Below the pieces are notes generated by a model, which was given only the letters and a program-made list of their open reading frames with translations, did no database searches and was not told where the DNA came from. Of a DNA stretch of 64,000 nt, positions 46,635 through 50,302 are shown piece by piece; position 1 is the stretch's first letter; each line of letters starts with the position of its first letter. The DNA is taken from the NCBI RefSeq assembly GCF_003443875.1, contig NZ_CP027482.1:2046001-2110000 (forward strand), written 5' to 3'. This DNA comes from Aeromicrobium sp. A1-2 (GTDB lineage: Bacteria > Actinomycetota > Actinomycetes > Propionibacteriales > Nocardioidaceae). A program made the position numbers and the translations under genes.

Positions 46635-47888
46635 GTGCGAATCGCGCTGCTGTCGTACCGGAGCAAGGCCCATTGTGGCGGTCAAGGCGTATATATACGT
46701 CACCTGAGCCGCGGGCTCGTCGAGCTCGGCCACGAGGTCGAGGTGTTCTCGGGTCAGCCCTATCCCGAAGACCTCGACCCGCGCGTGCGACTCACCCAGG
46801 TCCCGAGTCTGGACCTGTTCCGCGAACCCGATCCGTTCCGCACACCCCGGCTGCGTGAGTTCACGAGCGCCACCGACGTCCTGGAATATGCGCTGACGCT
46901 GACCGGCTGCTTCGCGGAGCCGTTGACCTTCAGCCTGCGGGCCGCCCGCCTCCTGCGTGACCGCGCCGACGAGTTCGACGTCGTGCACGACAATCAGAGT
47001 CTGGGTTACGGCCTGCTGTCACTCCTGCGACGTGGAGTCCCGCTCGCGGCGACGGTCCATCACCCGATCAGCCGTGATCGTGCGGTCGACCTGGCCGCAG
47101 CTCCCCTGCGCCGCAAGTTGTCGGTCCGCCGCTGGTACTCGTTCGTGCCGATGCAGGCACGCGTGGCCCGTCGCATCCCGATCGTCCTGGCCGTCGCGGG
47201 CGCCTCGGCCGCCGACTCCGTCGAGGACTTCGACCTCGATCCGGCCCAGATGCGCATCGTCCCGCTGGGGGTCGACACCGACCTGTTCGCGCCGAAGGAC
47301 TCGCGGGTGCCCGGTCGGATCGTCGCGATCGCCAGCGCTGATCGTCCGCTCAAGGGGGTCGTCCACCTGCTGGAGGCGGTCGCCAAGCTGCGCACCGAGC
47401 AAGATGTGGACCTGCACCTGGTCTCCAACCTCGAGCCCGGCGGCGCGACCGAGCGGCGGATCACCGAGCTGGGCATCCACGACGCGGTGCACGTCGTCAA
47501 CGGGATCAGTGACGAAGAGCTGGCAGCCCTGCTGGCCTCGGCCGACGTGATGTGCGTTCCATCGCTCTACGAAGGCTTCTCGCTGCCGACGGTCGAAGCC
47601 ATGTCATGCGGCACTCCCGTGGTCGCAAGTCGGGCCGGCGCACTGCCCGAGGTCGTCGGCGACTGTGCCGTGCTGGTCGAGCCAGGTGACTCCGACGCCC
47701 TGGCGGCCGCCGTCAAGGAGCTGCTCGAGTCGCCCGCTGAGCGCGCTCGGCTTGGCGCAGCGGGTCGCGCCAGAGCCCTCGAGCGCTACAGCTGGACCTC
47801 GGTCGCGCGGGCAACCGTCGACGCCTATTCAGAAGCCATCGCCGCAGCACGCGGCCGGACGAGCAGGAGCTCGCATGCTGACCGTTGA
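46635..47888 (+). CDS. GT4-family glycosyltransferase
   Basis: 417 residues from a GTG with GAGGAGG upstream. N-terminal acceptor domain with CGGQGVYIRHLSRGL; C-terminal nucleotide-sugar domain with VPLGVDTDLF, PSLYEGFSLPTVEAMSCGTPVVAS and the ExxxE-type catalytic EGFSLPTVE. It transfers a sugar with retention of configuration. First gene of a plus-strand operon with two methyltransferases and a toroid protein, suggesting assembly of a methylated glycoconjugate. Acceptor unknown. Confidence 0.85.
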   Translation: MRIALLSYRSKAHCGGQGVYIRHLSRGLVELGHEVEVFSGQPYPEDLDPRVRLTQVPSLDLFREPDPFRTPRLREFTSATDVLEYALTLTGCFAEPLTFSLRAARLLRDRADEFDVVHDNQSLGYGLLSLLRRGVPLAATVHHPISRDRAVDLAAAPLRRKLSVRRWYSFVPMQARVARRIPIVLAVAGASAADSVEDFDLDPAQMRIVPLGVDTDLFAPKDSRVPGRIVAIASADRPLKGVVHLLEAVAKLRTEQDVDLHLVSNLEPGGATERRITELGIHDAVHVVNGISDEELAALLASADVMCVPSLYEGFSLPTVEAMSCGTPVVASRAGALPEVVGDCAVLVEPGDSDALAAAVKELLESPAERARLGAAGRARALERYSWTSVARATVDAYSEAIAAARGRTSRSSHADR

Positions 47889-48588
47889 CTTCGACCGACT
47901 GCGAGTCGGACGCGGCACCCGTTTCATCGACGTCGGCGCCGGCGCCGGCCGTCACTCGTACGAGGCTCTGAGGCGCGGCGCACTCGTGACCGCGTACGAC
48001 ATGGACGAGGTCGAGCTCAAGGGCGTCGAGGACATGTTCGGTGCCCTCGAGCTCGAGGGCGAGGTGCCGCCCGGTGGGGCCGGACAGGTCCGGGTCGGTG
48101 ACATCCTCGACATGCCGTACGCCGACGGCAGCTTCGACGTCGTGCTGGCCTCGGAGATCCTCGAGCACGTGCCGCAGGACGACCAGGCGATCAGCGAGCT
48201 CGTACGCATCCTGGCTCCCGGCGGCATCCTGGCCGTCACGGTCCCCCGGTGGCTGCCGGAGCGTGTGTGCTGGGCCCTGTCGGACGAGTACCACGCCAAC
48301 GAGGGTGGCCACATCAGGATCTTCAAGGCTGATGAGCTCGAGGCGAAGATCGTCGCGGCCGGCATGACGTTCACCCACAAGCACCACGCCCACGCCCTGC
48401 ACGCGCCGTTCTGGTGGCTCAAGTGCGCGGTCGGCGTCGGCCGCGAGCAGCACCCGCTGGTGCGCACGTACCACCGGATGCTCGTGTGGGACATGATGAA
48501 GGCACCCGCCACGACGAGGCTCGCCGAGCGCGCGCTCAATCCCGTGATCGGCAAGAGCGTCGCACTGTACTTCCAGAAGCCGCTCTGA
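47875..48588 (+). CDS. SAM-dependent methyltransferase
   Basis: 237 residues from MLTVDFDRLRV, with AGGAG upstream and a 14-nt overlap on the glycosyltransferase. Class I motif I is DVGAGAGRHSYE, with the adenosine acid in AYDMDEVEL. The post motif FDVVLASEILEHV and RILAPGGILAVTVPRW complete the methyltransferase core. No membrane segment. Likely methylates a sugar hydroxyl or lipid-linked intermediate made by the upstream enzyme. Confidence 0.85.
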   Translation: MLTVDFDRLRVGRGTRFIDVGAGAGRHSYEALRRGALVTAYDMDEVELKGVEDMFGALELEGEVPPGGAGQVRVGDILDMPYADGSFDVVLASEILEHVPQDDQAISELVRILAPGGILAVTVPRWLPERVCWALSDEYHANEGGHIRIFKADELEAKIVAAGMTFTHKHHAHALHAPFWWLKCAVGVGREQHPLVRTYHRMLVWDMMKAPATTRLAERALNPVIGKSVALYFQKPL

Positions 48589-48590
48589 CG

Positions 48591-49655
48591 ATGCCCAAGA
48601 TCCCGTCCGTGCCCGGCGTGCTGACGCAAGCCCAGGTGCGGCAGACCGCCGACTCGATCGTGGCGACCCAGCTGCCGTCGGGCGCCATCCCGTGGTTCAC
48701 CGGGGGCCACACCGATCCGTGGGACCACGTCCAGGCAGCAATGGCACTGAGTGCAGCCGACCGACCACACGAGGCCGCCCGAGCGTACGGCTGGCTCCGC
48801 GACGTGCAACGGCCCGACGGATCGTGGGCCATCCGCTACGTCGGCGAGATCGTGGAGGACCCGCACACCGATTCCAACTTCTGCGCGTACCTCGCGACCG
48901 GCGTCTGGCACCACTGGCGGGCCACGGGCGATCGGGACTTCGTCGAGCTGATGTGGCCGACCGTGGCACGCGCCATCGACCTCGTGCTCGGCATGCAGCG
49001 GCCCGATGGCGCGGTCGTGTGGGCGCGGACCGAGACCGGTCCGGAGGACGAGGCCCTGGTGACTGGCAACGCCAGCATCCACCTGAGCCTGCGGTGCGCC
49101 ATCGCCCTCGCCGAGCTGCTCGACGATCCGCAGCCGGCTTGGGAGCTGTCCGCCGGTCGCCTACGGCACGCGCTGGACGACCACCCCGAGCTGTTCAACC
49201 CCAAGCCGACGCACTCGATGGACTGGTACTACCCGCTGCTGGGCGGCGCGATGGCGCCCGAGCGTGCCGCGCAGCGGATCGACGAGCGCTGGGATGACTT
49301 CGTCGTCGACGGACTGGGCGCACGGTGCGTCTCGACCAACCCCTGGGTCACGGGGGGCGAGACGTGCGAGCTCGCGCTGGCACTGGATGCTCTCGGCCGC
49401 ACGGACGAGGCCCGGACGCAGCTCGCCGCGATGCAGCACCTGCGCGACGACGACGGTTCCTACTGGACCGGTCTGGTCTACGACATCCAGACCCGTTGGC
49501 CCGTCGAGCGGACCACATGGACCGCCGCGACCGTGATCCTGGCTGCTGATGCTCTCTCGCGCACAACGCCGGCCAACGGCGTGTTCCGTGGCGAGGGCCT
49601 ACCGTTGTTCGACTGGAAGGCAAGCGACTCATGCCCGTGCCCGAGCCCGTTGTAA
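48591..49655 (+). CDS. Alpha/alpha-toroid protein (prenyltransferase/cyclase-like or glycosidase-like)
   Basis: 354 residues, starting two bases after the methyltransferase stop. The repeats [31 protein letters not shown] and [12 protein letters not shown] resemble QW-type toroid repeats of squalene cyclases and prenyltransferases. Aromatic and acidic residues ([36 protein letters not shown]) equally fit an alpha/alpha-barrel glycosidase fold. It is often annotated as prenyltransferase, but the catalytic function is uncertain. Overlaps the next gene by 25 nt. Confidence 0.65.
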
Positions 49656-50302
49656 CCGAGTTCCCAGAGCGGCTGGCCCGACTTGCCGAGTCGGTCAGGG
49701 GGTTCATGCCGCCTGAGGAGGGCCTCGCGCTGCACGCAGCCGCCACGGCGTACGTCCGCCCCGGCGGGGTCGCCGTCGAGATCGGCACGTACTGCGGCAA
49801 GTCGACGATCTACCTGGGTCACGCAGCCCAGGTGACCGGGTCGACCGTCGTGACGATCGACCACCACCGCGGCTCCGAGGAGCACCAGGTCGGCTGGGAG
49901 TATCACGACGCCTCCCTGGTCGATCCCGATTCCGGCCGCTTCGACACCCTGCCGACCCTGCGGCGCGCGCTGGCCGATGGTGACCTCGAGGAGGTCGTCG
50001 TGCCGATGATCGGCCGCTCGGTCGCCGTCTCAAGGTGGTGGCACACGCCGGTGGATCTGGTGTTCATCGACGGAGGGCACACCGACGAGGCAGCACAGCT
50101 GGACTTTCACGGCTGGGCTCCGTGGGTCCGACTCGGTGGCGCGCTGGTGATCCACGACGTGTTCCCCGACCCCAACGACGGGGGCCAGGCGCCGTACCGG
50201 ATCTATCGCGAGGCGATCGACAGCGGCGACTTCGTCGAGTCGTCGGTGACCGGATCGATGCGCGTCCTCACCCGGGTCGAGATCTCCCCCGACTCCCGCT
50301 GA
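49631..50302 (+). CDS. Class I SAM-dependent methyltransferase (second)
   Basis: 223 residues. Motif [16 protein letters not shown], then [14 protein letters not shown], and the [24 protein letters not shown] segment, the pattern of CmcI/macrocin-type sugar or small-molecule O-methyltransferases. Translationally coupled to the toroid gene (25-nt overlap). Converges with glgB with a 27-bp gap. Distinct from the other methyltransferase, so two methylation events are plausible. Confidence 0.8.

Follow-up and report, generated by a model that had tools for sequence, protein, structure and literature searches.

The stretch analysed here (the window) comprises 64,000 nucleotides from Aeromicrobium sp. 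A1-2, positions 2046001-2110000 of the one contig (NZ_CP027482.1; 3,446,585 bases) that constitutes the host genome, and it carries four closely coupled genes that probably encode the pathway for 3-O-methylmannose polysaccharide (MMP) (Table 1). The manT and pmeT3 genes overlap by 14 nucleotides (47875-47888), a gap of 2 bp (48589-48590) separates pmeT3 from mmpH, and mmpH overlaps meT1 by 25 nucleotides (49631-49655). An earlier annotation made from the DNA letters and translated frames (the sequence-only reading) had described four coupled genes with these coordinates, overlaps and gap, and our recomputed frames reproduced all of them. Because their homologs keep order and strand across many loci, as described below, the four frames are real genes rather than chance frames. 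The two methyltransferases fall into different Pfam families, Methyltransf_11 and Methyltransf_24.

Table 1. The four-gene operon and the GlgE-pathway genes beside it; positions are those of the window.
Feature	Position	Strand	Description
manT	46635..47888	+	GT4 family, putative alpha-1,4-mannosyltransferase of MMP; GTG start, 417 aa
pmeT3	47875..48588	+	class I S-adenosylmethionine methyltransferase, putative MMP 3-O-methyltransferase; ATG start, 237 aa
mmpH	48591..49655	+	putative MMP alpha-1,4-endomannosidase, (alpha/alpha)6 barrel; ATG start, 354 aa
Asp42/Asp45 codons	48716-48727	+	within mmpH; M. hassiacum positions 47/50
meT1	49631..50302	+	putative 1-O-methyltransferase capping the MMP reducing end; ATG start, 223 aa
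GlgB	50330-52234	opposite to operon	adjoins the cluster
GlgE	55515-57488	opposite to operon	beyond GlgB, maltokinase and trehalose-synthase-like protein

The sequence-only reading had left the product of these genes unassigned and had named orthology of all four to a characterised pathway as the finding that would overturn that view. Such orthology is clear for the mycobacterial MMP cluster, so the label "unassigned" is wrong; in M. hassiacum this cluster consists of manT, pmeT3, mmpH and meT1 (MHAS_04402 to 04405) in the same order (Maranha et al. 2023, PMC9883506). As described in the main text of that paper, MmpH is an alpha-1,4-endomannosidase whose products serve ManT and MeT1 as substrates, and a M. 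smegmatis mmpH mutant makes no MMP and has a generation time 18% longer at 15 °C (PMC9883506). When all four window proteins were compared by phmmer with the sequences of solved structures, ManT matched 7qsg (E = 2.2e-167), MmpH matched 7qsj (E = 2e-142, residues 3-350), and MeT1 matched 6g7d, 6g80 and 6h40 (E = 1.6e-81, residues 14-216). The last three, whose file label is only "Methyltransferase domain protein," we take to be M. hassiacum MeT1. 7QSJ and 7QSG are MmpH and ManT according to PMC9883506, the structure file of 7qsg being labelled "D-inositol 3-phosphate glycosyltransferase."

Residues were mapped through the window alignments to 7qsj and 7qsg. All 11 MmpH residues named in the main text of PMC9883506 are kept in the window protein, with M. 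hassiacum Asp47, Asp50 and Glu262 corresponding to window Asp42, Asp45 and Glu257. In ManT, nine of ten checked residues are kept (Gly15, His142, Lys240, Asp293, Glu313, Gly314, Phe315, Leu317 and Glu321), the single change being Leu291 to Ile. The pMeT3 protein is encoded between manT and mmpH, as in the known MMP cluster, and is 71% identical to the product of the gene that occupies this position in Mycobacterium sp. ACS4331 (locus L057). Altogether, orthology, gene order and kept active-site residues support the assignment that the operon makes and recycles MMP in an Aeromicrobium, to which we give a probability of about 0.93. These matches also agree with the broader proposal of the sequence-only reading that the operon would build and twice methylate a sugar product. 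By orthology, mature MMP would be cleaved by MmpH into short oligomannosides that carry methyl groups; ManT would lengthen these with alpha-1,4-mannose from GDP-mannose, pMeT3 would put the 3-O-methyl groups on, and MeT1 would cap those reducing ends that are free. The resulting chain would reside in the cytosol, be slightly hydrophobic and hold fatty-acyl chains.

Several points weigh against this assignment. The MMP product and all four enzyme activities are predicted from the genes alone, and at their level of identity to the experimentally tested enzymes, chain length, acylation or linkage could still have changed. Even in the mycobacterial cluster, pMeT3 is called putative in the main text of PMC9883506. 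The window pMeT3 has no close solved relative (best structure-sequence match, 1.7e-11), and its AlphaFold2 model, built from an alignment of 31 homologs (pLDDT 91.7, pTM 0.88), gave RebM (E = 4.6e-16; TM by query length, 0.65) and AtmM (E = 8.7e-16; 0.61) as best Foldseek matches. AtmM is a D-glucose O-methyltransferase by its structure name, and RebM presumably likewise methylates a sugar. Because SpnF, TleD and MitM, which we take to act on substrates other than sugars, score nearly as well against the model, these fold matches support a sugar substrate for pMeT3 without proving it.

If the specificity of the enzymes had drifted, the product might be another methylated mannan akin to MMP but distinguished by acylation, length or methylation pattern. 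Streptomyces griseus, in which both a ManT relative and a methylmannose polymer of related type are known, provides a precedent in that its MMP is acetylated (PMC9883506), and MmpH exists with two pocket types, Asp50-Trp315 and Asn50-Tyr315. However, since the window keeps the residues of the M. hassiacum enzymes (11/11 in MmpH and 9/10 in ManT), it belongs to the mycobacterial pocket type, and acyltransferases are absent from the ten recurrent neighbour families identified by their representatives. We therefore regard such a variant product as unlikely and retain MMP as the predicted product.

The sequence-only reading had considered that the toroid encoded by mmpH could be a glycosidase-type barrel rather than the prenyltransferase its usual label implies, and the match to 7qsj (MmpH) decided in favor of the former. 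The (alpha/alpha)6 barrel is shared with GH15 and GH125 glycosidases, which are structural neighbors of MmpH (PMC9883506); sequence identity to them is very low, and MmpH is distinguished as an endo-acting alpha-1,4-mannosidase. That the toroid belongs to a lipid pathway as a prenyltransferase or a squalene-cyclase-like enzyme would be suggested by weak matches to SQHop_cyclase (E = 0.027 and 0.059) and to 2,3-oxidosqualene cyclase (E = 0.0015), but the former reach only 13.9 and 13.0 bits versus cut-offs of 26.1 and 26.2, and the latter 16.9 bits versus 851. With such scores set against the 7qsj match and the kept catalytic residues, this candidate was rejected as having next to no chance of being correct. 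Equally implausible is an assignment to methylglucose lipopolysaccharide (MGLP), the other polymethylated polysaccharide of mycobacteria, which like MMP is cytosolic and is reported to bind acyl chains/acyl-CoA in vitro (PMC2674218). MGLP is built from a different sugar by different genes, the operon genes match MMP proteins instead, and the one MGLP gene searched for in the host genome, that of glucosyl-3-phosphoglycerate synthase (GpgS; NF010496), gave nothing above cut-off (best score 47.9 bits versus 262).

Gene order was compared in three sets of loci: the best 80 of 149 loci found (L037-L116), 30 same-genus loci whose genomes are partly shared with the first set, and 20 other loci, hand-picked among 92 MmpH-bearing genomes of the phylum to cover many families. 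Some same-genus genomes share their MmpH sequence with Aeromicrobium loci of known species, for example L015 with A. massiliense L044 and L016 with A. camelliae L047, in agreement with the genus assignment. The ManT-MeT3-MmpH core had the same order and strand in 77/80, 30/30 and 20/20 loci, respectively, or 127 of 130 overall, and the three exceptions (L065, L075 and L105) start inside MeT3 at a contig end. Conservation of gene order, which the sequence-only reading had proposed as a check, therefore holds for this core, with variation in the strand and distance of MeT1. The latter lay within the flank, at variable distance, in 69 of the 80 loci (22 on the same strand and 47 on the opposite strand); among the same-genus loci it was on the same strand in 21, on the opposite strand in 6 and absent from the 4-kb locus in 3, and of the other 20, 17 had it on the opposite strand, one (L144) had it on the same strand, and in 2 it lay outside the examined stretch. 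All 22 same-strand loci of the 80-locus set group in a single MmpH-tree clade (34 rows; Shimodaira-Hasegawa-like approximate likelihood ratio test [SH-aLRT] support, 99) that holds Aeromicrobium, near relatives, one Pseudonocardia locus and one locus from a Propionibacterium metagenome-assembled genome; L144 is placed outside it. Because same-strand MeT1 is nearly confined to this clade, the tight four-gene operon is largely a clade-specific arrangement of a general cluster. Compared to the mycobacterial cluster, with which it shares its four orthologous genes, their identical order and the MmpH and ManT residues noted above, the window differs in its Aeromicrobium host, in having the GlgE locus as a neighbor and in its MeT1 gene, which is co-directional and overlaps mmpH, whereas MeT1 is on the opposite strand in L128-L132, a group that clusters with the Mycobacterium locus L057 (SH-aLRT, 96).

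A search for further cluster genes by all-against-all blastp of the open frames in L037-L116 returned the four known families as recurrent across groups; clusters 4-10 overlap these and, from their offsets, look like shadow frames. Most of the ten further neighbor families identified by representatives are confined to one lineage, and two span groups. An aldehyde dehydrogenase family is found in ten Acidimicrobiia-type loci and in Virgisporangium L106, and a methylmalonyl-CoA mutase family in eight loci, two of Aeromicrobium and six of marine Acidimicrobiia type; both families are common. In 14 Acidimicrobiia-type loci (L088:13208-14095 and 13 others) another family lies beyond MeT1, directly adjoining it in some, and the one member scanned is an acyl-CoA thioesterase; this neighbor may hint at an acyl-CoA role or may reflect plain shared gene order. 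Two single loci also stood out. L145 carries a divergent cluster (identity of 45% for ManT, 42% for MeT3, 36% for MmpH and 41% for MeT1) with the same three-gene order and with Asp47, Glu262 and Glu265 kept, and the cluster of L074, recorded as "UNVERIFIED_ORG: Bacillus sp. AZ43," groups inside Blastococcus, so that its label is probably wrong.

The sequence-only reading was right that the GlgE locus lies beside the cluster; on the other strand it comprises GlgB, maltokinase, a trehalose-synthase-like protein (a tentative name) and GlgE. From this position that reading had raised the possibility that the operon acts on an alpha-glucan from the neighboring GlgE pathway, and the barrel type of MmpH is indeed common to glucodextranase (GH15) (PMC9883506). 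However, GlgB adjoins the cluster in only 7/80 loci (L037-L041, L043 and L046), all within one 13-row clade of the MmpH tree formed by Aeromicrobium and near relatives, in 8/30 of the overlapping same-genus set (L007-L014) and in 0/20 other loci. The predicted product, moreover, is alpha-1,4-linked methylmannose, and M. hassiacum MmpH does not cleave methylglucose polysaccharide, as reported in the main text of PMC9883506. Action on an alpha-glucan is thus unsupported and, in our judgment, very improbable. In L055, a weaker GlgE match (44%) is present on the other side of the cluster. On the manT side of the window, two adjoining minus-strand frames of 953 and 494 aa (42066-46353) diverge from manT; neither matched Pfam at E 1e-5, and the 953-aa frame is repetitive and rich in alanine and glutamate.

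The same set of loci bears on the catalytic acid of MmpH, for which the main text of PMC9883506 leaves the choice between Asp47 and Asp50 open. Among 118 distinct MmpH sequences from the 130 loci, Asp47, Glu262 and Glu265 are invariant (118/118), while 71 sequences have Asp at position 50 and 47 have Asn. Residues 50 and 315 co-vary over the 130 loci (Asp-Trp, 83; Asn-Tyr, 45; Asn-Trp, 2; Asp-Tyr, 0), and three changes are needed for this pattern on a quick MmpH tree that serves as a guide only, with the Asp50/Trp315 columns kept in. Because Asp47 is invariant while Asp50 is often replaced by Asn, Asp47 is the likelier catalytic acid, provided that the Asn50 enzymes are active, as we infer from their intact clusters. 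Both pocket types occur in Aeromicrobium: most loci (the window and L037-L048) have Asp50/Trp315, and six same-genus loci (L026-L030 and L032) have Asn50/Tyr315 with MeT1 on the opposite strand and group in the tree with L138, from another genus of the family, a pattern suggesting that a related cluster took the place of the earlier one.

MMP and MGLP have been proposed to be regulators of fatty acid metabolism, given their regulation of fatty acid synthase I (FAS-I) in vitro and their binding of acyl chains (PMC2674218). To compare MMP genes with FAS-I, one domain, PF08354, was used as the FAS-I marker, with only Corynebacterium glutamicum positive among 14 control genomes, and MmpH was scored as present in the phylum sample at E <= 1e-20. 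The host genome has one PF08354 match, in a 3026-codon open frame outside the window (L117). Within the genus, the marker was above cut-off in 36/37 genomes and MmpH was present in 32/37, the five without it being 58-92% complete; in 21 genomes from other families of the order, no FAS-I match was above cut-off (three were weak), and MmpH gave only two weak matches of 31-32% identity over <80 residues. In a phylum sample of 396 genomes, MmpH was found in 92, FAS-I in 24 and both in 18, so that the marker is missing from 74 of the 92 genomes with MmpH. In a sample of 120 genomes of the family, MmpH was found in 100, FAS-I in 45 and both in 38, and the two dissociate in both directions: one genus (g9) has MmpH in 30/30 and FAS-I in 0/30 genomes, and another (g268) has FAS-I in 6/6 and MmpH in 0/6. 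Among 48 genomes (a subset of 50 chosen) behind MMP loci of the 80-locus set, FAS-I was detected in 15, comprising all examined Aeromicrobium, Dietzia, Nocardia, Gordonia, Rhodococcoides and Mycobacterium plus L056 and L061. The 33 without it include all examined Blastococcus and Acidimicrobiia-type genomes as well as L042, L045, L050, L082 and L106, many being metagenome bins that are possibly incomplete. The FAS-I-type domain itself was seen in 5 of 22 sampled genera of the family and in two phylum genomes outside the class (G202 and G486).

Because MMP genes and FAS-I dissociate across the phylum and in both directions within the family, FAS-I regulation can hardly be the general role of MMP. 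A statistical association speaks on the other side: across the phylum, MmpH is present in 18/24 FAS-I genomes versus 74/372 others (Fisher p = 4e-8, uncorrected for descent). It is gone within the family (38/45 with FAS-I versus 62/75 without; p = 1.0), and it leaves room for FAS-I regulation, which may be one role of MMP where FAS-I exists. Since many genomes in which the FAS-I marker is missing carry these genes, the general role is more likely to be acyl-chain handling than FAS-I tuning. Streptomyces griseus, the maker of acetylated MMP, to our knowledge has no FAS-I and already pointed this way. In its strongest form, the proposal would be that MMP is an actinobacterial glycan for handling acyl chains that dispersed across the phylum without regard to FAS-I, with whichever acyl-CoA pool a cell contains as its partner, and that the idea of MMP serving mainly as a FAS-I regulator is wrong; we consider this an even bet.

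In the open literature, outside supplements and most subscription journals, PMC9883506 was the only source found on MMP genes that could bear on Aeromicrobium, and its main text does not mention the genus. The operon is thus a known pathway in a host for which we found no report of it, and two points are added here: MMP genes dissociate from FAS-I, and Asp47 is predicted to be the catalytic acid of MmpH. The natural residue pattern behind the second point makes the choice between the two aspartates directly testable. An apparent orphan pathway is thereby taken off the list, and a pathway studied in mycobacteria is now traced to Aeromicrobium and further genera of the same family, to Geodermatophilaceae and to Acidimicrobiia-type genomes. 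A long-standing functional proposal becomes directly testable because MMP genes and FAS-I dissociate both ways. Aeromicrobium, which has FAS-I, and those sister genera that have the cluster but lack FAS-I would serve as a natural experiment on whether MMP acts independently of FAS-I.

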